A stretch of 54,938 nt of DNA, from the IMG/VR virus record IMGVR_UViG_3300031841_003996, positions 1 through 54,938 of that record; one strand, given 5' to 3'. The notes below the pieces were generated by a model. That model made no database searches and was not told the DNA's origin. It saw nothing but the letters and a program-made list of their open reading frames with translations. Below are positions 7,121 through 54,870 of the stretch, piece by piece (positions within the stretch are counted from its first letter, which is position 1; each line of letters opens with the position of its first letter). Source of the DNA: a virus. The position numbers and the translations under genes are program-made.

Positions 7121-7408
7121 ATGTTCAAGTTTAAAGATGTCGACGTGACGTTTGAATTTAAGAAGCTTCCTAAATATGATCAGGAGTATCTTAAGACAAT
7201 GGCCTATGAAACCGTTCAGACCAATTCTGTAAAGAACTCTGGTAAATCATTTAAAGAATGGTATCCTAAGGCTAAGAACTTTACTATGTTCAAAGATAAG
7301 TCTACTATGTACAATTATATGTCAGAGTTTAGTGGTCAGTATGCAAATACTGCATCTCACCTGCTTGATGGTACTAAGTATTTCTTTGCTTGGACATACT
7401 CGAAATAA
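7121..7408 (+). CDS. Unknown protein, 95 aa
   Basis: A soluble 95-residue product with many Lys, Tyr and Phe residues and no recognised domain. It follows its own promoter-like site, and GTTACA abuts the ATG in place of a Shine-Dalgarno sequence. It is the first gene of the run leading into the deazaguanine genes, 8 bases before the QueD start. Confidence 0.7.
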   Translation: MFKFKDVDVTFEFKKLPKYDQEYLKTMAYETVQTNSVKNSGKSFKEWYPKAKNFTMFKDKSTMYNYMSEFSGQYANTASHLLDGTKYFFAWTYSK

Positions 7409-7416
7409 GGAGTATA

Positions 7417-7854
7417 ATGTACAGGAGTTACAAAGAGTTTAACGGTTATAGTACAGCATTTAGGCAATGGCGCGCAGATTCACATTGCAGATATGTACAT
7501 GGCTATGCAATTCATTTCAAGGTTTGGTTCGAAGGTGAGCTAGATGAACGCAATTGGGTATGTGATTTTGGATGTTTCAAACGTAATGGCATTAAAGATA
7601 TGCTAAAAGAAATGTTCGATCATACTACAATTGTTGCGGATGATGATCCGTATAAAGATCGATTCATCGAAATGGCTAATTCCGATCTAATTCAATTACG
7701 TATTATGCCAGATGTAGGCTGCGAAAAGTTTGCTGAATGGGTATTCAATGCAGTCAATGAAGCTATCCAGTTAGAGACTGATGGTAGAGTAAATGTATAT
7801 AAAGTTCAATGTTGGGAACATTCTGAAAATATGGCGGAGTATTATGGCGAATAA
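7417..7854 (+). CDS. queD: QueD-like 6-carboxy-tetrahydropterin synthase
   Basis: Converts dihydroneopterin triphosphate to 6-carboxytetrahydropterin, the second step toward 7-deazaguanine. The 145-residue product has the family pattern: CRYVHGY at 24-30, an acidic GELDERNWVCDFG at 40-52, FDHTTIVADDDP at 67-78, a GCEKFAEWV segment like the usual PTAENxA, and a terminal VQCWEHSENMAEY. Two usual zinc His positions differ: FSAAH becomes YSTAF, and HGH becomes HGY. This puts it in a variant QueD subgroup. ATG 7417 has AAGGAG 5 bases upstream. It overlaps queE by 11 bases. Confidence 0.82.
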   Translation: MYRSYKEFNGYSTAFRQWRADSHCRYVHGYAIHFKVWFEGELDERNWVCDFGCFKRNGIKDMLKEMFDHTTIVADDDPYKDRFIEMANSDLIQLRIMPDVGCEKFAEWVFNAVNEAIQLETDGRVNVYKVQCWEHSENMAEYYGE

Positions 7855-8620
7855 GCGAATTGAAGATTATGATAAAGTATTGCCTATTAACGAATTGTAT
7901 AGATGTGTACAATCCGAAGGCAGTAGATTCGGACGTCCTACTATTGCAATCCGCGTAACAGGTTGTACTCACCGATGCTGGTTTGGTGAAGGTGGTTGGT
8001 GCGATAGTTGGTATAGTTCTATTCATCCTGAGAAAGGCAAGTTTACATTCAATGACATTATCAAAATTTATGATGAGAATCCTCATGTAAAGGAGATGAT
8101 GTTAACAGGCGGCGCGCCGACAATGCAGCCGGCATTAGTAAATGAATTGATGCATTTTGCTAGTAAACGTGGTATTATCGTTACTATAGAAACTGAAGGT
8201 TCGCATTTCGTTGAAACGGATTTGCCTATCGATCTTATTTCTCTCAGTCCTAAATTTTCCAATTCGGTTCCTAAAGTAGGTATTGAAACGCCTGGTGGTA
8301 AGATTGTAGATGAGCGATTCGTTAAACAGCATAACAAGTTCCGTCTTAACTATGATGCAATTCGTAAGATGATTGATTATCATTACGATTATCATTACAA
8401 GCCAGTATGGGATGGTACAGATGAATGCCTTAAGGAGATTGAAGACTTCCGTATGAAGATGGATATTCCTAAACATAAGACATTTGTAATGCCCGCGGGT
8501 GATTCGAGAGAACAATTAATTAAAATGTATCCGCTAGTATTTGAACTTTGTGCAGAACATGGTTACAATATGACAGGTAGAGATCATATTATTGCATTTG
8601 ATCAAGAACGAGCAGTATAA
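7844..8620 (+). CDS. queE: QueE-like 7-carboxy-7-deazaguanine synthase (radical SAM)
   Basis: Radical SAM enzyme that rearranges 6-carboxytetrahydropterin to 7-carboxy-7-deazaguanine. In the 258-residue product the cluster cysteines are C41, C45 and C53 (CTHRC then WC, spacing CX3CX7C). The LTGGAPTMQP motif follows near residue 87, then IETEGSH and LISLSPK. The protein begins with a typical QueE segment (YRCVQSEGSRFGRPTIAIRVTGC in pieces). I start at ATG 7844, with GGAG 4 bases upstream, rather than at earlier in-frame codons inside queD. Confidence 0.88.
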   Translation: MANKRIEDYDKVLPINELYRCVQSEGSRFGRPTIAIRVTGCTHRCWFGEGGWCDSWYSSIHPEKGKFTFNDIIKIYDENPHVKEMMLTGGAPTMQPALVNELMHFASKRGIIVTIETEGSHFVETDLPIDLISLSPKFSNSVPKVGIETPGGKIVDERFVKQHNKFRLNYDAIRKMIDYHYDYHYKPVWDGTDECLKEIEDFRMKMDIPKHKTFVMPAGDSREQLIKMYPLVFELCAEHGYNMTGRDHIIAFDQERAV

Positions 8621-8952: not shown

Positions 8953-9615
8953 ATGTGTAAGAACAAAGTAAATTTAGAGCTAGTTAAAGAAGGCTTTGCA
9001 AATGGAGTAGCCAAAGGCCGTCCATTGACAGACGATGAGAAGAAGGAGATGATCCTTCGGGCAGAAACAGCATTTGGAGAGTTTCTGGATGCATTAAAAG
9101 TAGATTGGAGAAATGATCCTAATTCAGATCGTACTCCGTATCGAGTTGCTAAGGCATATGTAAATGATCTATGGGCTGGACGATATGAAGGCGCTCCAGA
9201 GATTACAGCATTTCCTAGTGATGGATATGATGGTATGGTATTCGAAGGGGGCATTCCTTTAACTAGTATGTGTTCACACCATCACCAAACAATTATGGGT
9301 AAGGTACATGTTGCTTATATTCCAGGTAAGGATAGTAAAGTAATTGGTCTGAGTAAACTCAATCGATTAGTAGAACATTTCGGACGCCGCGGCGCTATTC
9401 AAGAGCAATTGACTGTTGCAATTCATCATGCAATTGAAACTATTATCGAAGACAATGCTGGCGTAGCAGTTATGATTGAAGCGACTCATAATTGTGTACA
9501 ATGCCGAGGAGTTAAGCATGGCGGTGCTAGTATGAAGACTAGTAAGTTAACTGGAGCATTTAAGAATGATAAAGCAACGCGTGCTGAGTTCTATGAATTC
9601 GTAAAGGGATACTAA
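8953..9615 (+). CDS. folE: GTP cyclohydrolase I
   Basis: Opens GTP to dihydroneopterin triphosphate, the first step to 7-deazaguanine and to folate. The 220-residue product carries zinc ligands C107 and H110 (CSHHH) and C181 (HNCVQCRGV), plus GLSKLNRLVEHFGRR and EDNAGVAVMIEATH. Length and motifs are those of complete bacterial FolE. Its stop overlaps the next gene as TAATG, linking it to a purine salvage enzyme that could supply GTP precursors. Confidence 0.94.
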   Translation: MCKNKVNLELVKEGFANGVAKGRPLTDDEKKEMILRAETAFGEFLDALKVDWRNDPNSDRTPYRVAKAYVNDLWAGRYEGAPEITAFPSDGYDGMVFEGGIPLTSMCSHHHQTIMGKVHVAYIPGKDSKVIGLSKLNRLVEHFGRRGAIQEQLTVAIHHAIETIIEDNAGVAVMIEATHNCVQCRGVKHGGASMKTSKLTGAFKNDKATRAEFYEFVKGY

Positions 9616-10121
9616 TGGATATTCTCATTCCAGAATATAAGATTGAACGTCGTGTTCGAGCCATGGCTCATAAGCTATCAGAAGAACATAAGAATAGTGG
9701 TAACTCATTACCACCTGTAATGATTTGTGTACTTAACGGCGCGTTCATGTTCTTTACGGATCTAGTACGTGATATGGGTATCGATGTACAGACAGACTTT
9801 ATTCGTCCCAAATCATATGAAGGTAGAGATAACTCCGCCGGCGTTACGTTTACTAAAGATATTGAAATAGATCTAAAAGGTAAGCGTGTTTACATCATTG
9901 AAGACATTGTCGATACGGGACAGACAATGACAGAGATTCTGATGCGTATTTCAGATAAACGTCCTGAGTCAGTTAAGGTCGTAACGCTTGTAGAACGTAA
10001 AGGTACTGCATTTCCATCTGATCATACATGTTTCGAAATCGGCGATGAATGGGTTGTTGGTTACGGATTTGATGATAATTCTCTTAAGAGAAACTATAGA
10101 AACATTTATAAGATAAACTAA
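9615..10121 (+). CDS. hpt: Hypoxanthine/guanine phosphoribosyltransferase
   Basis: Salvages hypoxanthine or guanine with PRPP to IMP or GMP. The 168-residue type I PRTase has the PRPP loop IIEDIVDTGQTM (about 95-106), an N-terminal LNGAFMFFTDL segment and the flexible-loop RPKSYEGRDNSAG. The C-terminal VGYGFD is typical of Hpt. It directly overlaps folE by one base, and the next small gene overlaps it by one base. Confidence 0.88.
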   Translation: MDILIPEYKIERRVRAMAHKLSEEHKNSGNSLPPVMICVLNGAFMFFTDLVRDMGIDVQTDFIRPKSYEGRDNSAGVTFTKDIEIDLKGKRVYIIEDIVDTGQTMTEILMRISDKRPESVKVVTLVERKGTAFPSDHTCFEIGDEWVVGYGFDDNSLKRNYRNIYKIN

Positions 10122-10276
10122 TGAATCAACCAGACCCACTAATGCATCAACGACTTAGTTTCGTTAAATCGGCAATTCGTATTATCGGATATGCTTTCAT
10201 TCCATTTAATTTGTTAATTGCCGCAGGAGTCCTTATATTAAGCGAGGTAGTAGGAATCGTTGAAGAACTCGTTTAA
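10121..10276 (+). CDS. Small membrane protein, 51 aa
   Basis: A 51-codon frame linked to both neighbours by TAATG overlaps, which makes it convincing. Residues about 18-48 are hydrophobic and could form one transmembrane or amphipathic helix (IIGYAFIPFNLLIAAGVLIL), ending in an acidic EELV. No family is recognised. Position directly before the DNA polymerase suggests cotranscription. Confidence 0.75.
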   Translation: MNQPDPLMHQRLSFVKSAIRIIGYAFIPFNLLIAAGVLILSEVVGIVEELV

Positions 10277-12744
10277 TGTATCAAGCAGTAGCATATCGTA
10301 AATCAGATAACTCAGTACATATCTGGGATGACCGTAAAGGTTATTATTCAATCAAGTACAAGCCATATGCATATCGCAAAGCGACGTATGGCAATCAAGT
10401 AGCCCTCGACGGCGAACGTGTTATAAAGGTAGATAACTTTGATCGTAATGAACCTGGCTTGTATGAAGCAGATATCAATCCGGAGACTCGTACTCTAATC
10501 GATTTGTATACCGATTCAGATGAACCTTCGATTGGCCATCGTACTATTTTTATCGATATCGAGGTTGATATTGAAAACGGATTTCCGACGCCAGAAGAAG
10601 CTCAGAATGAAGTAACTTCGATTGCAATCTATGATCAGGCCGGCGATAGTCGTTATGTATGGGTCTTAGATAAAGAAGGCGTTGTACAAGATACGGAACA
10701 AGTTATTTCATGTAACGATGAGTATACATTGTTGCAGAAGTTCTTGCATAAGTACAATGAGATACAGCCTACAATTATAACAGGATGGAACATTGACTTC
10801 TTTGATATTCCGTACTTGTATAATCGTATGTGTCATATATTAGGTGAACGTAAAGCTCGTGCATTGTCACCTATCAATGATGTTATTTGGCTTAAGCATA
10901 GGAATAGATATCGTATCTCGGGCGTAGCTTGTCTGGATTATATGGCATTGTATAAGAACTTTACATATACGGAAGAATCTAGTTACTCACTTGAAGCGAT
11001 CTCTCAGAAAGAACTTGGTAGAGGTAAGATCAAATATGATGGCGATCTAAATGATTTGATGCGTGCTGATATCAATAAGTACGTTGACTATAACATGAAT
11101 GACGTTGATCTTGTAGTTGAGATTGATGAGAAGATGAAGTTGCTCGATCTTGCAAGAGCAATTTGCCATAAAGGCCATGTTCCGTATGAAGATGTATATT
11201 TTTCTACTAGATATCTCGACGGTGCATCGTTGACCTATTTGAAACGTCAAGGCTTTGTTGCTCCGAGCCGTAAGCCTAGAGATTCCGATGAGCCATTAGA
11301 ACTCCTAGGAGCATTCGTTAAGCCTCCAAATCCAGGTCGTTACAAATGGGTATATGACCTTGACTTGACATCGCTGTATCCTAGTATCATTATGACACTT
11401 AATGTTTCTCCGGAGACCAAAGTAACTAAACTAGATAAGTTCGACGGTCATGAGTATGTGAAAGATGAAGGTAAACATTATTCGGATGGATGGAACGGAT
11501 GGGAGGATAGTAAAGAGTTACGTGGATATCTAGAGTCTAATAACTATTCAATTGCAGCTAACGGCGTTGTATATGCAAAGGATATCAAAGGCTTTATTCC
11601 TTCGATTCTTGAAAAGTGGTTTGCAGAACGTGTAGAGTATAAGAATCTACGTAAGAAGTATGAGAAAGAAGGCGATGCTGATAAGGCTGAGTACTATGAT
11701 CGACTTCAGCTAGTTACAAAGATTCTTTTGAATTCATTCTACGGCGTTCTTGGCAATCCTGGATTTAGATTCTTCGATCCGGACAATGCAGTTGCTATTA
11801 CAAGTACAGGTCAGCAATTGATTAAGTTCACAGCTGATATTGGCAATAAGTTCTATACAAGAGAGTTGGGAGTCGATAAGGACTACTGCATCTATACTGA
11901 TACAGATTCGACATTCTTTTCATCATTGCCTATCATTGAACATCGATATCCGGACTATGATATTACCAATGAAGATTGGATGGCAGAAAAAACGATTGAA
12001 GTTGCTGATGAGGTTCAGGCATTTATTAACAAGTCGTATGATATCTATGGTCAACGCTTTCATAATGTATCGACTCATAGATTTGATATTAAGCAAGAGA
12101 ATGTTGCAAAAGCCGGCCTATGGATTGCTAAGAAGAGATATGCTCAATGGATTATCAATATAGAAGGTCATTCGGTATCGAAACTCGATGTTAAAGGATT
12201 GGACGTTGTTCGGTCATCCTTCCCTCCGGCATTTAGGAGATTTATGGCAGAGGTATTGGAAGATATCCTAAACGATATCAATAAGACGGATTTGGATGAT
12301 AAGATCCTAGCATTTAAAGATCATATCAAGTCGTTAGATATACTCGAGATCATGTTCCCAACGGGTGTAAAGAAAGTTTCTAAGTATCGTGATAAACGTG
12401 CTAAGCCATTCGCCCCTCCGGCTAAGGGAACGCCTGTACATGTTAAGTCGGCTATCAATTACAATGATATGCTCAAGTATCATAATGTTCGAACCGTACG
12501 AGAGATTATCAACGGCGAGAAGATTAAATGGACTTATCTTAAATCGAATCCAATGAATTTGAATTCGTTAGCACTTAAAGGATTTGAAGATCCGGAAGTT
12601 ATTGTTGACTTTGTTAAGCAGTATATCAATCATGACAAGATCTTTAAGTCAGCCTTTGAAAATAAACTCAATGATTTCTATCAAGCGATGAATTGGGGTA
12701 GGGTTCCGGAGAACAATAATTTAGGAAAGTTTTTCGGATTTTGA
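10276..12744 (+). CDS. DNA polymerase, family B (gp43-like)
   Basis: The 822-residue replicative polymerase has an intact proofreading domain: Exo I FIDIEVD with D94 and E96, Exo II TGWNIDFFDIPYLYNR, Exo III YNMNDVDL. It also has complete polymerase motifs: A DLTSLYPSI near 364, B KILLNSFYGVLGNPG near 485, and C YTDTDS near 540. T4 gp43 is about 898 residues, so this is slightly shorter. It ends just before another promoter-like element. Confidence 0.97.
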   Translation: MYQAVAYRKSDNSVHIWDDRKGYYSIKYKPYAYRKATYGNQVALDGERVIKVDNFDRNEPGLYEADINPETRTLIDLYTDSDEPSIGHRTIFIDIEVDIENGFPTPEEAQNEVTSIAIYDQAGDSRYVWVLDKEGVVQDTEQVISCNDEYTLLQKFLHKYNEIQPTIITGWNIDFFDIPYLYNRMCHILGERKARALSPINDVIWLKHRNRYRISGVACLDYMALYKNFTYTEESSYSLEAISQKELGRGKIKYDGDLNDLMRADINKYVDYNMNDVDLVVEIDEKMKLLDLARAICHKGHVPYEDVYFSTRYLDGASLTYLKRQGFVAPSRKPRDSDEPLELLGAFVKPPNPGRYKWVYDLDLTSLYPSIIMTLNVSPETKVTKLDKFDGHEYVKDEGKHYSDGWNGWEDSKELRGYLESNNYSIAANGVVYAKDIKGFIPSILEKWFAERVEYKNLRKKYEKEGDADKAEYYDRLQLVTKILLNSFYGVLGNPGFRFFDPDNAVAITSTGQQLIKFTADIGNKFYTRELGVDKDYCIYTDTDSTFFSSLPIIEHRYPDYDITNEDWMAEKTIEVADEVQAFINKSYDIYGQRFHNVSTHRFDIKQENVAKAGLWIAKKRYAQWIINIEGHSVSKLDVKGLDVVRSSFPPAFRRFMAEVLEDILNDINKTDLDDKILAFKDHIKSLDILEIMFPTGVKKVSKYRDKRAKPFAPPAKGTPVHVKSAINYNDMLKYHNVRTVREIINGEKIKWTYLKSNPMNLNSLALKGFEDPEVIVDFVKQYINHDKIFKSAFENKLNDFYQAMNWGRVPENNNLGKFFGF

Positions 12745-12780: not shown

Positions 12781-13215
12781 ATGATAGGTTATAAGACACA
12801 TTGGATTGGTAATGAATGCGAAGGTCGTTTGAGCGACATTGAAACTTTGTTCATTGGAGATATTGACTGCGAACCGATGCAAAATGGTTGGGTCGCGGAG
12901 AATCATGTTTATTTATGTTCGCCAGCTGTTAATCAAATGATTGAACGTGGTAGTTGGAATTGGTTCTTTGATTTACTGCAAAATGGGTTATCTAGCAAAA
13001 TCGTAACGTTAGAAGTTCCTGCAGGTGAGTTGCATAAGATTCCAGCTCAGGTACGTAACATGGTTCATATCATGTACATGTTCCATGATAAGGATTTCGG
13101 CTTGCTTAAGTCGAATGATAGTATGAAAGTTGTACATGGCGAGTATCAATTGCATTGTACTACAAAGTGCAATATGCAAGAAGTAACGCCGGACGGATAT
13201 AAGCATGACAAGTAA
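12781..13215 (+). CDS. Unknown protein upstream of glycosyltransferase/DpdA
   Basis: A 144-residue soluble protein, not recognised. It begins immediately after a promoter-like box and overlaps the glycosyltransferase by 11 bases. With the next two genes it forms a three-gene block placed between the DNA polymerase and the sliding clamp. If that block modifies DNA, this could be an accessory subunit; this is inference from position only. Confidence 0.72.
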   Translation: MIGYKTHWIGNECEGRLSDIETLFIGDIDCEPMQNGWVAENHVYLCSPAVNQMIERGSWNWFFDLLQNGLSSKIVTLEVPAGELHKIPAQVRNMVHIMYMFHDKDFGLLKSNDSMKVVHGEYQLHCTTKCNMQEVTPDGYKHDK

Positions 13216-14260
13216 AACGATTTACATAGTAGATCTAGAGGCAGTAGAATCTAGATATACGGGCGAATGGAAAACTCATATCCCGACATTGATACGTGAG
13301 AGTGTTGATGATGCAGAGGTTGTAGTTATCGAAGGCCCAACCGATATCCCGGAAGCGACGACGCCTGGAGCTTTTTTGAACTTCGGAGGTACGAATGTAT
13401 ACAAGAGTGACCAGATGTCGCAAATTGCTAGATTGTTTTGTGAAGGTAAAGTGAGAGAAGGAGATCATTTTATCTATACAGATGCATGGAATCCGACCAT
13501 TATTCAACTCAAGTATATGAGTCAGTTGCTAAATATTCCAGTTAAGATTCATGGATTTTGGCATGCAGGTAATTATGATCCAAATGACTTCCTAGGTCGG
13601 TTGATTAAGGATAAGTGGGTAAAGACATTTGAAAAGTCTTTAGCTGAAGCTATCGATTACAATTGGTTTGCTTCCGATGACCATTTACGTATGTTCAGAG
13701 ATAACTTTGGATATGATGGTATTCAATGTTTCCGTACAGGATGGCCAATGGAGTATCTTAAAGGTAAGTTGAAGCCTAATCGTAAGAAAGAAGATATTAT
13801 TCTATTTCCTCATAGAATCGCTCCGGAGAAACAAGTTGAAATCTTTAAAGAGTTGGCTAAGATTATTCCGGAGTATAAGTTTATTATCTGTCAGGAAGAT
13901 AAGCTTAGTAAGAAACAGTATCATGATTTGCTCGAAAGATCCAAGATGGTGTTCTCAGCTAATCTTCAAGAGACATTAGGCATTTCATGTTATGAAGCAG
14001 CATGTGCCGGATCTATTCCATTGGTACCGGATCGTTTGAGTTATACAGAGATGTATGATCGTACATTTACATATCCAAGTGAATGGACGGAGTCGATGGA
14101 TGAGTTCCAAAAGCGTAAGGGTGCATTAGTTTCTCATATTAGATACATGATGAATCGTCATGATGAATTTGAAAGTCAGATTACAAAGCAAGCAGAGTTC
14201 TTGCATGATCAGTACTTTTCGTGTAACAATTTATTGAAGGTGTTAAATGGACAAGCCTAA
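13205..14260 (+). CDS. GT4-like glycosyltransferase next to DpdA
   Basis: A 351-residue GT-B-fold protein. The C-terminal half has the retaining GT signature: PHRIAPEKQ at 202-210, then ETLGISCYEAACAGSIPLVP with the E-x7-E pair E256/E264. The N-terminal half is divergent. It sits in the replication region, not in the sugar island, and overlaps the DpdA-like gene by 14 bases. The C-terminal segment resembles, by eye, eukaryotic queuosine-tRNA mannosyltransferase-type GTs (GTDC1). Glycosylation of a deazaguanine base is a hypothesis; a general GT4 role is the safe call. Confidence 0.75.
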   Translation: MTSKTIYIVDLEAVESRYTGEWKTHIPTLIRESVDDAEVVVIEGPTDIPEATTPGAFLNFGGTNVYKSDQMSQIARLFCEGKVREGDHFIYTDAWNPTIIQLKYMSQLLNIPVKIHGFWHAGNYDPNDFLGRLIKDKWVKTFEKSLAEAIDYNWFASDDHLRMFRDNFGYDGIQCFRTGWPMEYLKGKLKPNRKKEDIILFPHRIAPEKQVEIFKELAKIIPEYKFIICQEDKLSKKQYHDLLERSKMVFSANLQETLGISCYEAACAGSIPLVPDRLSYTEMYDRTFTYPSEWTESMDEFQKRKGALVSHIRYMMNRHDEFESQITKQAEFLHDQYFSCNNLLKVLNGQA

Positions 14261-15494
14261 AGAGTTTATTTATTTTCCGTCATTGTCCGCCGGCGGATTT
14301 GCATCGTCTTTGATTAAAGATGATAAGTTATCATCTGGTGTGCCATGTAGATTTTATTCGGATGATTATCCGGAAAAGTTTCGTCATAAGTACTTCCTTG
14401 TAACGGCTGGTCACTATTATAAGAAGATGGATATTCGTCAGCAGATGGGACTTGGCGATGATGTATTAGTATTCGGTGATTCGGGAGGATATCAAATTGC
14501 AACGGGTGCATTGAAGTATAGTGATGACTTGAGAGAGAAGATCTTTCATTGGTTAGAAGCTAATTCAGATGTTGCTGCAAATTTGGATATTCCACCTAAG
14601 ACAGTATATGAGAACAAGTTCTATCAATGTGCTGATATTAGTTATGATAACTTTGCTTGGTTCGAAAAGAAGCAATCTGGTAAGACTAAGTTCTTGAACA
14701 TGTTGCAAGGATCGAATCCGCAAGAGTATGATTGGTGGTACCATAAGTTTAAGCATTTTGAATTTAGCGGTTGGGCAATTGGCGGTCCGCAGAAGTTAGT
14801 AGACTTCATGTGGGCATTGGCATTGATGCTCAAGAATAGAGAGTTTGAAAATACTCGTTTGGAATACTTGCACTTGTTAGGTATATCAAAGATATCAGAT
14901 TTCTTTATCTTATCAACGATTCAGAAGCTGTTGAATAAGCATTACGGTAATCGTATTACAGTGACAACAGATTCAAGTTCGCCCGGACAATATCCTGTGT
15001 ATGGAACGTTCCTGCATTCGCATAACTTCAAGAAGTTGTCTTTTAGCGATGTATATATGCCAAAGCCAGATAAAGATGCTGATGGTAATATGATTCCGTT
15101 ATCAGAAGGAAAGATTCCAGATCTTCAACCAGATTTGTTAGTTCCGGATAGTTTAGGTGATCCGGCATGCCAAGACTTTACATGGGGCATGTTAGATAAC
15201 TATAACAAAGAAGCAGTTCCTAGAATGGTATTGCATAATGTGCATGTATTTCAAAATACAATTCAAGAGGTAAATAAAATTGTAGCGGCTCATAGAGATG
15301 TTGCGCAATATATGGTACCAAATGATTTGGCCGCGGTACTTAAAAGCATCTATGAGATGTTTGAAGATCCTGATAAGGCGATAACAACCTATGAGAAGTA
15401 TAAGCAATATTATCGCAAGTTCGGCGGACAAAGTATAACAACAATCAATCAAGACAAGTTTAATCAGTTTTTTGAACAAAAAGATCAATCATGA
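14247..15494 (+). CDS. dpdA: DpdA/TGT-like DNA guanine transglycosylase candidate
   Basis: A 415-residue member of the tRNA-guanine transglycosylase superfamily, expected to swap guanine for a 7-deazaguanine base. Key motifs: FGDSGGYQ with D78, LQGSNP near 153, GWAIGG at 175-180, and TDSSSPGQYP with D242 as the likely nucleophile. No CxCxxC zinc motif of classical TGT is visible, and the C-terminal half is divergent. Phage TGT-like proteins of this kind (DpdA) act on DNA. FolE, QueD and QueE in the same window support this. A tRNA substrate cannot be excluded. Confidence 0.8.
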   Translation: MDKPKEFIYFPSLSAGGFASSLIKDDKLSSGVPCRFYSDDYPEKFRHKYFLVTAGHYYKKMDIRQQMGLGDDVLVFGDSGGYQIATGALKYSDDLREKIFHWLEANSDVAANLDIPPKTVYENKFYQCADISYDNFAWFEKKQSGKTKFLNMLQGSNPQEYDWWYHKFKHFEFSGWAIGGPQKLVDFMWALALMLKNREFENTRLEYLHLLGISKISDFFILSTIQKLLNKHYGNRITVTTDSSSPGQYPVYGTFLHSHNFKKLSFSDVYMPKPDKDADGNMIPLSEGKIPDLQPDLLVPDSLGDPACQDFTWGMLDNYNKEAVPRMVLHNVHVFQNTIQEVNKIVAAHRDVAQYMVPNDLAAVLKSIYEMFEDPDKAITTYEKYKQYYRKFGGQSITTINQDKFNQFFEQKDQS

Positions 15495-16207
15495 AAAAGC
15501 AAGAACTTTTAAATTTTATTAGCCGATATCATTTGGCTGGCGCAACGACCTCTGTTAAGTGGATTGCTCAATCAGGTACGTTGCAAACTAGTTTTATTAC
15601 TGATGACCAGAATGTTATCGGTACAGTTAATACATCTCAGATCGATATGGGAGATGCCGAGTTAGGTGTTTATGCAACGCCTCAATTGGTAAAGATGTTA
15701 TCCGCGGTCAATGATGATTTGGATGTATCTGTTAACTCAATTGATAACAAGGCAGTGAGTGTCGGTATCAATGATAAGGATGTTAAGATGACATTCATGT
15801 TAGCCGATCTGTCTGTTATTAGACAAGTTCCGGATCTTAAGAATACTCCGGATTGGAATGTATCAATTGATTTGACCAAAGAGTTTACCAATCGATTTAT
15901 TAAGGCAAAGAATGCATTGCCTGAGTCAGAGAACTTTGGTATCAAATGTACGGGCGATACGGCAGAGGTAATTATCAATTATTCATCTATCAATAACAAC
16001 CGAATCAAATTTGATTTCGATGTTACAAATGCAACGGAGATACCTGTTACATGTTTCTCATCTAATCTGTTCAAAGAAATCTTGAATGCAAATAAAGATG
16101 CTGAGACTGGTAAGTTGGAGGTATCTGCAGCAGGATTGGCCAGAGTAACCTTTAGTTCTAAGACATATTCAGCAACATATTATCTTGTACAACTCCAAGC
16201 TAGCTAA
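15491..16207 (+). CDS. Sliding clamp (gp45-like)
   Basis: A 238-residue DNA polymerase processivity clamp. It has the two-domain PCNA-like layout, with a first domain to about residue 120 and a second ending in the typical strand ATYYLVQLQ. Its length is close to T4 gp45 (228). Position before dUTPase, the gp44-like ATPase and the gp62-like protein follows T4 order. It overlaps dpdA by 4 bases. Confidence 0.88.
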   Translation: MKKQELLNFISRYHLAGATTSVKWIAQSGTLQTSFITDDQNVIGTVNTSQIDMGDAELGVYATPQLVKMLSAVNDDLDVSVNSIDNKAVSVGINDKDVKMTFMLADLSVIRQVPDLKNTPDWNVSIDLTKEFTNRFIKAKNALPESENFGIKCTGDTAEVIINYSSINNNRIKFDFDVTNATEIPVTCFSSNLFKEILNANKDAETGKLEVSAAGLARVTFSSKTYSATYYLVQLQAS

Positions 16208-16209
16208 TA

Positions 16210-16647
16210 ATGAAAGTACGATTCAAAAAGTTATCACCTAAGGCAGTTACTCCTAGTTATGCAACGCCTGGCGATGCAGGTATGGATGTTACAGCAATCG
16301 GTCATCGTATCGATGCCAAGCATAACTTTATCGAGTATCATACAGGGTTAGCCTTAGAGATTCCAGAAGGGTACGTGGGTTTGCTATTTCCTAGATCATC
16401 AGTATCTAAAATGGATGTATCATTAGCAAACTGTGTAGGAGTAGTAGATTCGGGATATAGAGGTGAGATTACGTTCCGCTATAAGTTTGCAAAAGATAGT
16501 TTCTTTGCAGGAGTCAAGCGTTATAAAGATGGTGATAGAATTGGACAATTGGTAATTATTCCTTATCCTTCTATTGAATTAGAAGAAGCTGATGAATTGA
16601 ATGAGACGGTTCGGGGCGAAGGTGGATATGGATCAACTGGTAAATAA
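16210..16647 (+). CDS. dut: dUTPase
   Basis: Trimeric dUTP pyrophosphatase that limits uracil in DNA and supplies dUMP. All five motifs are present in 145 residues: PGDAGMDVTA, PRSSVSK, GVVDSGYRGEI, GDRIGQLVI and the Gly-rich C-terminal RGEGGYGSTGK. It lies 2 bases after the clamp gene and overlaps the clamp loader gene by about 20 bases. Confidence 0.95.
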   Translation: MKVRFKKLSPKAVTPSYATPGDAGMDVTAIGHRIDAKHNFIEYHTGLALEIPEGYVGLLFPRSSVSKMDVSLANCVGVVDSGYRGEITFRYKFAKDSFFAGVKRYKDGDRIGQLVIIPYPSIELEEADELNETVRGEGGYGSTGK

Positions 16648-26532: not shown

Positions 26533-27280
26533 TTGTAAATTACAAGGTGGGTTAGGGAACTATATGTTTCAAGCTGCAGCTGCGCATAGTTTAGCTATTA
26601 GTAACAACACAACTGCGGTATTTGATTTAGATAATGCGGCTCGTGTACATCAACATGCTAATGTGTATAAACACAATATACTACGTAATTTAAATGTAGG
26701 CGAAATTACTTTAACATGCCAGTATAATGAACCGCATTTTCATTATTCTGAAATGCCATATCAGTCTGGAATATTACTAAACGGTTATTTTCAATCCGAT
26801 AAATATCTAGATCGTTCTGCTACATTGGAATTATTTTCAATCGATGACGAAAGTTATAAGTTTATTGTCGATAAATATGGCACTTCATTTAACAATGCAG
26901 TATCCATACATGTACGACGTGGCGATTATTTAGCTAAACACGATCGACACCCAGTTCAGCCAATTGATTACTACAATCAGGCCATGCAATATTTTGATTC
27001 ATCGTCAATATTTTATATATTCAGTGATGATATAGAATGGTGTAAAGAAAATTTTAAAGGCTCACAGTTTACTTTTGTTGAGGGCAATGCAGATTATATA
27101 GATTTATGGTTAATGAGTTTATGCAATCATAACATTATAGCAAATTCATCATTTAGCTGGTGGGGCGCATGGCTAAATCAAAATCCTAATAAAATTGTTA
27201 TAGCACCTGAGAATTGGTTCGGACCGAATAAAAAATTAAGTACACGAGATTTGATACCAGAACAATGGATAACAGTATGA
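26525..27280 (+). CDS. Family 11 (alpha-1,2-fucosyltransferase-like) glycosyltransferase
   Basis: A 251-residue GT11 enzyme: LQGGLGNYMFQAAAAHSLA at the start, SIHVRRGDYL in the middle (the HxRRGDY donor motif) and NSSFSWWGAWLN near the end. Members transfer L-fucose from GDP-fucose. The island also encodes Gmd and an Fcl-like enzyme that could make this donor. It starts with GTG at 26525; no better ATG is available. It ends in an ATGA overlap with the carbamoyltransferase gene. Confidence 0.88.
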   Translation: MVSCKLQGGLGNYMFQAAAAHSLAISNNTTAVFDLDNAARVHQHANVYKHNILRNLNVGEITLTCQYNEPHFHYSEMPYQSGILLNGYFQSDKYLDRSATLELFSIDDESYKFIVDKYGTSFNNAVSIHVRRGDYLAKHDRHPVQPIDYYNQAMQYFDSSSIFYIFSDDIEWCKENFKGSQFTFVEGNADYIDLWLMSLCNHNIIANSSFSWWGAWLNQNPNKIVIAPENWFGPNKKLSTRDLIPEQWITV

Positions 27281-40144: not shown

Positions 40145-40895
40145 AAGTAATAGTCCTCTCCGAGCGGATCTATCATATCCTATCCTTGTAGCACATCAGC
40201 CCGAGTTCTTGCCATGGCTAGGTAATTTATCTAAAGCAGCGATGGGCGATGTATATTTGATATTAGATACTGTACAGTTTGTAAAGGAAGTATTTCAAAA
40301 TAGAAACAAGATAAAAATTGCTAGCGATCGTGGATGGCAGTGGCTAACTGTTCCGACCATAGGCGGCAAGAAAAAGTTAATGAATTGGCAAGATGTAAAA
40401 ATAAATAACTCAATTCCATGGAAACGTAAACATCTTGCTGCGATCAAAACATCATATGCTAAGGCACCATTTTTTTCAGAAATATATCCTGAGATAGAAC
40501 AAATTTATAATGAGTTTGATGACGATCGATTGATAGAATTTGTAGTTAAGTTCATTGAATATGCCCATCGTAAATTTGAATTGAATATACCTATTTACAG
40601 AACTTCACGATTGATTGAACGAGGATATGATATAAGCGGAGCTAAAACAGATCTAATACTGAGTATGTGTAGATCGGTAGATGCTAAAACTTTTATCTTC
40701 GGTACACAAGGAAGAAATTATATTGAAAAGGAAAAATTTAATCAGGTAGAATATAGGTTTCAGAACTTCGAACATCCTATTTATATGCAGCAACATGGCG
40801 ATTTTATTTCACACATGTCTTTCATAGATGTGTTGTTTAATTATGGTCCTAATGCGAAACATGTTTTAAATAAATCTAGTTACGATGAAGAATAA
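40122..40895 (+). CDS. WbqC-family protein
   Basis: A 257-residue WbqC-like protein: LVAHQPEFLPWLGNLSKA at the start, ILDTVQFVKEVFQNRNKI, then the KTFIFGTQGRNYIEKEKF segment and YGPNAKHVL at the end. The family occurs in O-antigen clusters making acylated amino sugars; its reaction is not well established. It follows the aminotransferase with a 23-base overlap and precedes a deacetylase, which fits a shared amino-sugar branch. Confidence 0.83.
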   Translation: MRPIEVNKSNSPLRADLSYPILVAHQPEFLPWLGNLSKAAMGDVYLILDTVQFVKEVFQNRNKIKIASDRGWQWLTVPTIGGKKKLMNWQDVKINNSIPWKRKHLAAIKTSYAKAPFFSEIYPEIEQIYNEFDDDRLIEFVVKFIEYAHRKFELNIPIYRTSRLIERGYDISGAKTDLILSMCRSVDAKTFIFGTQGRNYIEKEKFNQVEYRFQNFEHPIYMQQHGDFISHMSFIDVLFNYGPNAKHVLNKSSYDEE

Positions 40896-41538
40896 AGTCA
40901 TGGCAATCGGAGCACATCCGGATGATATCGAATTTGGATGTGGTGGCACATTAGCTAAACATAAAGAACAAGGCGATTTTGTCGTCTATGTTTGTATGAC
41001 CAATACTGAATCAGTAGATGGCGTTACTAACGAAATTATCAGATCTTCAGAAGAAAATCGATCGGAGGTGTCTGACGCTGCTAAAATATTGAAATGTGAT
41101 GTAGTAGAATTTTTACCATTTACAGATCTCAAAGTTCCGTTTAGCTTCGATTCGGTGAGTAATCTAGAACGTTTAATTAAGAAATATGATATAGATACTA
41201 TCTATACTCATTGGGCTGGAGATGCTAATCAAGATCATATAGCTACATTTAAGACAACTATGGCAGCATCTAGATATGTTCCTAATGTATTTTGTTATGA
41301 ACAAATTCCTATCCCTAGAATGAGCGAAAATCAGATGGATGTAAATTATTATGTCGATATCACAAATACATTTGATTTAAAAATGGCAGCTAGTCTATGC
41401 CATGATAGCCAAATACGTAAATACATACATCATGGATTCGACGTGAAAGAAAATTTACAGATTTTAGCTAAGTTCAGAGGCATTCAAGCAAAATGTAATT
41501 ATGCGGAAGCATTTAAAATAATAAAACAAGTATGGTAA
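40885..41538 (+). CDS. PIG-L/LmbE family deacetylase
   Basis: A 217-residue zinc hydrolase. AIGAHPDDIEFGCGGTL supplies the AHPDD metal motif, and GDANQDHIATF the final His. Members remove N-acetyl groups from GlcNAc-type sugars. Together with the dehydratase, aminotransferase and WbqC genes it could tailor an amino sugar. It overlaps both neighbours by 7-11 bases. Confidence 0.88.
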   Translation: MKNKVMAIGAHPDDIEFGCGGTLAKHKEQGDFVVYVCMTNTESVDGVTNEIIRSSEENRSEVSDAAKILKCDVVEFLPFTDLKVPFSFDSVSNLERLIKKYDIDTIYTHWAGDANQDHIATFKTTMAASRYVPNVFCYEQIPIPRMSENQMDVNYYVDITNTFDLKMAASLCHDSQIRKYIHHGFDVKENLQILAKFRGIQAKCNYAEAFKIIKQVW

Positions 41539-52751: not shown

Positions 52752-53099
52752 ATGGTTACAAACGTTATAGTTAAGTTATCAGTAGATGGTCTCCATAATT
52801 GGCCAGATGCTAAGAAGATCTTTCCGGAGGTAGGTTTCCTATCGGATATACATCGACATATGTTTCATTTCACAGCAAAGAAGAGAGTGAATCATGATGA
52901 TCGAGATGTAGAATTTATTATGTTCAAGCGAGATATTGAAGAATACTTGTATGATAAGTATTGGAAGCAAGAGTATCGTAGTCACTTCTTTGGACCTAAA
53001 TCCTGTGAGATGTTGGCTAGAGAGATACTTGAATACTTTGATTGTGAGTATGTATCAGTGTTCGAGGACGACGAAAATGGAGCAGAGTGTTATGTCTGA
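52752..53099 (+). CDS. Unknown conserved-looking protein, 115 aa
   Basis: A protein with an eye-catching HRHMFHF segment (35-41) followed by NHDDRDVEFIMFKRDIEEYL and FGPKSCEMLAREILEYF. It probably binds metal through the histidines. I recall similar unannotated phage proteins but cannot name a family. It overlaps the next small gene by 8 bases. Confidence 0.72.
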   Translation: MVTNVIVKLSVDGLHNWPDAKKIFPEVGFLSDIHRHMFHFTAKKRVNHDDRDVEFIMFKRDIEEYLYDKYWKQEYRSHFFGPKSCEMLAREILEYFDCEYVSVFEDDENGAECYV

Positions 53100-54282: not shown

Positions 54283-54368
54283 GCCCGGGTGGTGGAATTG
54301 GTAGACACGTCAGACTTAAAATCTGATTCGCCGAATGGTGAGTGCGGGTTCGAGCCCCGCCCCGGGTA
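54283..54368 (+). tRNA. tRNA-Leu (anticodon UAA)
   Basis: The acceptor GCCCGGG pairs with CCCGGGT, with a T arm GCGGG-TTCGAGC-CCCGC. The anticodon stem TCAGA/TCTGA holds the loop CTTAAAA (anticodon TAA), and a long class II variable arm follows. The CCA end is not encoded. It reads UUA, the most used Leu codon in the sugar island. Confidence 0.95.
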
Positions 54369-54381
54369 CAAAAACTAAAAG

Positions 54382-54730: not shown

Positions 54731-54804
54731 GCTCCCTTAGCTCAGTTGGATAGAGCAACAGCCTTCTAAGCTGTGGGTCTCAGGTTCGAATCCTGAAGGG
54801 AGTA
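54731..54804 (+). tRNA. tRNA-Arg (anticodon UCU)
   Basis: The acceptor GCTCCCT pairs with AGGGAGT. The D loop is CTCAGTTGGATAGAG, the anticodon stem ACAGC/GCTGT holds the loop CTTCTAA (anticodon TCT), and the T arm is TCAGG-TTCGAAT-CCTGA. It reads AGA, a frequent Arg codon throughout the window. CCA is not encoded. Confidence 0.95.
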
Positions 54805-54870
54805 CTAGAGTTCTTTGACGTATTAACATTCGCTGATGACGCCACTGCGTAATAAATGGCGCACCAATAT

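Follow-up and report, generated by a model that had tools for sequence, protein, structure and literature searches.

A conserved phage cassette of a DpdA-like transglycosylase and a GT4 glycosyltransferase suggests glycosylated 7-deazaguanine in phage DNA

The overlap of a gene related to DNA-guanine transglycosylases with a glycosyltransferase gene, within the replication module of a marine bacteriophage genome, raises the question of whether some phages attach a sugar to a 7-deazaguanine in their DNA. The genes are encoded in virus record IMGVR_UViG_3300031841_003996, which is perhaps a partial genome and whose 54,938 nt were analyzed as a whole (the window). The original prediction, which proposed such a modification, placed three open reading frames correctly, all of them on the + strand: U (12781-13215, 144 amino acids), a conserved partner of the other two; a glycosyltransferase of the GT-B/GT4 type, designated GT (13205-14260, 351 amino acids); and a DpdA-like putative DNA-guanine transglycosylase (14247-15494, 415 amino acids). 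In the ORF list U and GT overlap by 11 nt, GT and the DpdA-like gene by exactly the predicted 14 nt, and the latter and the downstream gene by 4 nt. The block is flanked, on the same strand, by PolB (10276-12744) and by a small clamp-like gene (15491-16207, 238 amino acids). The polymerase side of this predicted location is secured by Pfam (DNA_pol_B, 4.7e-36) and PHROG (phrog_262) matches, whereas "clamp" is only a plausible label for a gene that lacks a confident family match. It is followed, at 16601, by an AAA gene that resembles a clamp loader. With its DNA polymerase, clamp-like and dUTPase-like genes, the neighborhood of the cassette is a replication module.

GT matches Pfam Glycos_transf_1 at 4.5e-6, barely over the cut-off. 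In an alignment of the 36 members of its family, E256 and E264 of the EX7E motif are invariant, as are R204 and K209, which correspond to the donor-diphosphate-binding R/K of GT4 and are kept in 36/36 members. EX7E is also seen in nearly all GT ORFs of the relatives, X1 and PhiXhv among them. An AlphaFold2 model built from the 36-member alignment (mean pLDDT 88, pTM 0.86) displays a GT-B fold. The best solved match of the model in Foldseek is BshA (E 1.5e-10, TM 0.69/0.66, about 0.67), followed by glycogen synthases, PglA, MshA and a tetrahydrobiopterin glucosyltransferase. GT is thus a member of GT4, with a GT-B fold in the model and an intact EX7E motif in its sequence. Its segments PHRIAPEKQ and ETLGISCYEA had been likened to queuosine-tRNA glycosyltransferases of the GTDC1 type; both occur in the GT sequence but they represent the generic diphosphate-binding and EX7E motifs of GT4, and a place of GT in the GTDC1 family is not supported. 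The N-terminal domain of QTMAN (PF12038) had no match at E<=1 in any of the 36 members, and the structure-based search that had been set beforehand as the test of a GTDC1/QTMAN relationship yielded BshA-type enzymes, not tRNA-queuosine glycosyltransferases, as the best PDB matches, in a library that may lack a GTDC1 structure. A search of the PDB sequences with the GT profile returned nothing meaningful.

The window also contains a large sugar island (20859-45316, roughly 21-45 kb), in which ORFs resembling GTs, epimerases and aminotransferases are numerous and which includes a carbamoyltransferase-like ORF at 27265 and a PIG-L deacetylase (40885-41538, Pfam 6.6e-24). The deacetylase was considered as a component of the system and dismissed, as it sits in the sugar island and no linkage to the cassette was found. 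GT stands apart from this island, as had been proposed: it lies by PolB, and in a search of the window ORFs the GT profile matched GT itself and none of the island glycosyltransferases. Among 385 Alphaproteobacteria, the profile detected one gene, in Devosia. Since the window is otherwise unmatched and the Devosia gene is the only one in these bacteria, GT represents a distinct family rather than a stray surface-glycan glycosyltransferase.

Whether GT belongs functionally to the DpdA-like protein was examined in relatives. Scans of viral contigs yielded 75 loci for GT and 43 for DpdA. There is redundancy among them: when clustered at 85% identity, the sequences of full length comprise 42 GT groups and 26 DpdA groups. 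Among the GT loci with sufficient flanking sequence, a DpdA-like gene is present in 45/45 of the close and 43/43 of the divergent ones, and GT was found in all DpdA-seeded loci having at least about 450 nt upstream. In one locus with 431 nt upstream of DpdA (L035), a different GT4-like partial ORF occupies the GT slot. The survey that the original prediction had called for thus revealed a consistent dpdA-GT pairing. U, the small gene at 12781, had been included in the block and is indeed retained in 42 of the 43 divergent GT loci, and all 43 contain T, a small protein described below. As the block is kept across very divergent phages, its conservation is far beyond chance. In GenBank, GT occurs in 20 records, all placed in phages that carry deazaguanine genes and comprising about six lineages. 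These matches were checked by one representative per group; PhiXhv-15, PhiXhv-16 and Ep032 were assigned from a near-identical GT match and the remaining PA5oct-like records by their representative. The gene order is DpdA-GT-T-PRTase-QueE in PA5oct, T-GT-FolE-QueE with DpdA elsewhere in Phosso, QueD-FolE-U-DpdA-GT-T-QueE in ACP17, FolE-U-GT-DpdA-T-QueE in X1, QueE-PRTase-QueD-FolE-GT2-DpdA-T-GT in BUCT-ZZ01, and Gat-QueC-PIG-L-GT in PhiXhv-12, where FolE and a weak DpdA-like match are located elsewhere. The order is reshuffled while the gene set is retained, which therefore points to function rather than inherited synteny, and a functional partnership of DpdA and GT is well supported. An X1 ORF (10744-11523) with a PIG-L-like PHVDDE motif lacks a Pfam match and was left uncounted.

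Some loci are more complex. In two of them, a second GT paralogue without EX7E immediately precedes DpdA (L107:10863-11873; L108:5492-6478), and the GT with an intact EX7E adjoins U and a phosphoribosyltransferase; the paralogue is possibly a non-catalytic partner. In the Xanthomonas phage PhiXhv-12 (L123, 2690-11947), Gat-QueC, a PIG-L deacetylase and GT lie beside GNAT proteins, a Leu/Phe-tRNA-protein-transferase domain and a Gfo/Idh/MocA oxidoreductase, a cluster that looks like a more elaborate hypermodification. Because this phage couples GT with Gat-QueC, the 7-substituents that serve the GT family as acceptors may be of more than one kind.

The DpdA-like protein itself gave no confident match to Pfam, NCBIfam or PHROG (best TgtA at 0.06 and phrog_10773 at 0.013), and a search of the PDB sequences with its profile revealed nothing meaningful. 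The silence of the Pfam TGT model is uninformative because PF01702 also misses the validated DpdA of phage 9g and DpdA2 of KVP40 when the whole records are searched. In a profile-profile comparison by hhalign, the DpdAs of the window clade matched DpdA2 (KVP40, X1, ACP17, BUCT-ZZ01) with 92% probability and an E of 6e-7, as compared with mostly <=1% and at the highest 9% for unrelated profile pairs. The alignment pairs DSGGYQ with DSGGLQ, HLLGI with HxLGVG, and TTDSSS with SYDSTT, such that D78 (DSGGYQ) and D242 (TTDSSS), both invariant in 12 orthologues, line up with the catalytic aspartates of DpdA2. The predicted TGT-like nature of the enzyme is thereby supported. The window clade and the divergent group-B DpdAs are related at 99.9%; as the group-B profile alone scores just 9.7% against DpdA2, the homology to the validated enzymes is remote and its statistical strength modest. 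At the position of the TGT zinc site (CxCxxC plus H), CxxxCPxC together with an HN motif is seen in most relatives, and the window clade has DSLGDPAC (14/42). Relative to CSLDCPAC in 27 relatives, residues 301-308 of the window clade (14) thus display a paired Cys-to-Asp replacement at two positions. KVP40 is presumably a relative of nt-1. Phage nt-1 encodes DpdA2 and contains 7-deazaguanines in its DNA (PMC6884629). The DpdA-like enzyme of the window is likely to replace guanine in DNA by a 7-deazaguanine.

Genes for the synthesis of such a base, and one for putative guanine salvage, lie upstream of the block on the + strand: a QueD-like 6-carboxytetrahydropterin synthase (7390-7854, Pfam PTPS 1.9e-19), which aligns with phage QueDs and has the invariant catalytic Cys33 and HG motif; a QueE-like radical-SAM 7-carboxy-7-deazaguanine synthase (7793-8620, Pfam Radical_SAM 4.1e-7), which aligns with annotated phage QueEs; FolE, GTP cyclohydrolase I (8953-9615, Pfam GTP_cyclohydroI 7.3e-47); and a purine phosphoribosyltransferase of the hypoxanthine-guanine type (9615-10121, TIGR01203 1.4e-42, slightly under the cut-off), a gene that is also close to the cassette in two viral contigs (L061, L098), PA5oct and BUCT-ZZ01. 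No QueC was found in the 55-kb window record, which by itself is weak evidence because the completeness of the record is uncertain. Its absence is supported by the complete genomes of PA5oct, Phosso, ACP17, X1 and BUCT-ZZ01, in which no QueC was found by the same model that finds QueC in KVP40 and 9g. A QueC candidate in a 134-kb contig (L056) was a sub-threshold fragment of 19 bits and was rejected.

The QueC-less phages PA5oct, Phosso, ACP17, X1 and BUCT-ZZ01 all contain T, a small PTPS/QueD-related protein of the phrog_17812 family. In the window, T is encoded at 52752-53099 on the + strand, distant from the block; in the loci of the relatives, its family comprises 63 ORFs and adjoins GT/FolE. 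These associations place T in the gene set of the cassette. The T and QueD profiles match at 89% (E 2e-6; unrelated controls <=1.1%), and T keeps the zinc-type HxH motif and the Glu of the SCE motif. None of the 22 T members has Cys at the catalytic position that precedes HxH, and L30 is invariant among them. Weak bacterioferritin-type matches of T to PDB sequences were taken as chance. A QueD-related protein in QueC-less phages that keeps the His motif and lacks the Cys may act on CDG (7-carboxy-7-deazaguanine) in place of QueC. The T gene and the missing QueC, both overlooked in the original prediction, alter the likely chemistry of the base. DpdL was reportedly published in 2023 as a CDG decarboxylase, and the T family could be DpdL. 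Decarboxylation of CDG by T would leave no evident site for O-linkage of the sugar, which would then need another, less evident mode of attachment. In five phages (L128-L132), T lies beside or near FolE, and neither GT nor a match to the DpdA profile nor a complete QueC was detected; T therefore functions without this GT.

U is the third family of the block, with matches in 91 ORFs of the relatives' loci and a presence in most groups; it was not detected in the stretches read of PA5oct, Phosso and BUCT-ZZ01. The window-type and group-B-type U proteins match at 89% (E 2e-6; unrelated pairs <=0.5%). The AlphaFold2 model of U (pLDDT 91) had no structural match in the PDB or BFVD at E<=0.001. A motif-level impression of U as a degenerate QueE was ruled out by hhalign values of 0.3-0.5%.

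GT and DpdA are also found together in bacteria. Contigs of Devosia naphthalenivorans (L139) and Azospirillum isscasi (L138) encode both proteins and a Vut_1-type membrane protein, the gene of which in both loci is immediately upstream of GT or overlaps it. The Devosia protein matches Vut_1 at 1.1e-5, slightly below the cut-off, and the Azospirillum counterpart was likened to it by appearance. The Vut_1 family includes queuosine-precursor transporters, so this neighbor provides an independent tie of GT to the supply of 7-deazaguanine. Both are chromosomal islands near a resolvase or integrase-like gene, and an AAA-type ATPase is also close by in Azospirillum.

In the model favored here, FolE, QueD and QueE would make CDG, which is the expected phage-made base because a phage QueC is absent, and CDG would possibly be processed further by T and/or U. 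The DpdA-like enzyme would then exchange guanine of newly replicated phage DNA for the deazaguanine base, and GT would move a sugar from a nucleotide-sugar donor to the exposed 7-substituent, resulting in a glycosylated 7-deazaguanine that might protect the DNA from restriction. The phosphoribosyltransferase would recycle the guanine freed by DpdA, and U would have a conserved role in the cassette. A UDP-GlcNAc-like or N-acetylhexosamine donor is weakly favored because of the similarity to BshA and the PIG-L neighbor in PhiXhv-12, although a Pfam-supported PIG-L is adjacent in that one lineage only and thus lends weak support to GlcNAc. To this model, in which DpdA inserts a base formed independently of a phage QueC and GT then adds the sugar, a probability of about 0.6 is assigned. 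Arguing against it are that CDG supplies only a carboxylate, that the relation of DpdA to the validated enzymes is remote, and that the GT paralogue adjoining DpdA in L107 and L108 is without EX7E.

The order of the last two steps might be reversed, such that the acceptor of GT is the free base, or an intermediate on the way to it, and DpdA inserts the ready-made product, by analogy to the insertion of queuine by TGT. The small-molecule acceptors of GT4 enzymes among the best structural matches (malate for BshA, tetrahydrobiopterin for the glucosyltransferase) and the coupling of GT with a putative small-molecule transporter in the bacterial loci would suit this order, but a bulky base would demand a roomier DpdA pocket and known DNA glucosylation happens post-insertion; we consider it unlikely. 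Rather improbable is a cassette directed at host or phage tRNA, which would form a glycosylated deazaguanosine akin to mannosyl- or galactosyl-queuosine. Glycosylated queuosine does occur in tRNA, the TGT superfamily includes the DpdA-like enzyme, and the window carries two tRNA genes (54283-54369 and 54731-54805). These are Leu(TAA) and Arg(TCT), however, neither of which is a queuosine acceptor; PF12038 is absent, the cassette sits among DNA polymerase, clamp-like and dUTPase-like genes, and DpdA2 relatives modify DNA (PMC6884629).

A deazaguanine that stays unglycosylated (dCDG, or dDG if T decarboxylates), with GT directed at a phage protein or a different base, would fit the five phages with T and FolE in which GT was undetected, as well as the chemical expectation that CDG and DG accept sugars poorly. 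We give little credence to this explanation, as GT tracks DpdA in all testable loci despite the reshuffled order, and in the bacterial islands as well. Most improbable is that GT is an ordinary surface-glycan enzyme beside dpdA by chance. GT4 has a very large membership and the sugar island is rich in GT-like ORFs, yet the latter are unmatched by the GT profile, GT is nearly absent from bacterial genomes and DpdA is present in all testable loci.

Taken more broadly, the findings would describe a widespread phage hypermodification: a 7-deazaguanine from a QueC-independent FolE-QueD-QueE-T-U route would be inserted by a DpdA of a new subfamily and receive a sugar, perhaps an amino sugar, from a GT4 devoted to it, and bacterial genomic islands would hold a salvage form that consists of transporter, GT and DpdA. 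For this comprehensive scheme, the chances for and against appear balanced. In PA5oct, a system for deazaguanine synthesis and incorporation was already noted in a comparison of jumbo phages (PMC7824862). A literature search, mostly of open sources and of titles and abstracts, found no report of a glycosylated deazaguanine in DNA or of a DpdA-linked glycosyltransferase, and the novelty is accordingly provisional. If the proposal is true, two separately known disguises of phage DNA, 7-deazaguanines and sugar-decorated pyrimidines, would be joined; GT, U and T, three families with little annotation that occur in many environmental phages, would gain a suggested function; and a possible counterpart in bacterial genomic islands would be identified. 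The same cassette is present in cultured phages, namely the PA5oct group (including Paride), ACP17 and X1.

The alpha- and beta-glucosyltransferases of T4 likewise have a GT-B fold and glycosylate a phage DNA base, but that base is hydroxymethylcytosine and they are not among the best 50 structural matches of GT. The tRNA-queuosine mannosyltransferase GTDC1/QTMAN would be analogous in function, as a GT4-type enzyme that decorates a 7-deazaguanine; in GT, the QTMAN N-terminal domain was undetected and a specific sequence link was not found. With BshA, which transfers GlcNAc from UDP-GlcNAc to L-malate, and the tetrahydrobiopterin glucosyltransferase, GT shares the GT-B/GT4 fold and EX7E but only 11-14% identity; the acceptors differ, and those enzymes belong to bacillithiol and pterin metabolism whereas GT belongs to a DpdA cassette. 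T differs from QueD in being shorter, in the non-Cys residue at the catalytic position, and in its occurrence where QueC is missing. A close parallel is offered by the DpdA and DpdA2 pathways for 7-deazaguanines in phages 9g, nt-1, CAjan and Rosebush (PMC6884629): FolE, QueD, QueE, a transglycosylase of the TGT superfamily and a location in a replication module are common to them and to the window, which differs in that it lacks QueC, employs a transglycosylase of a distinct, remote subfamily and contains in addition U, T and GT.
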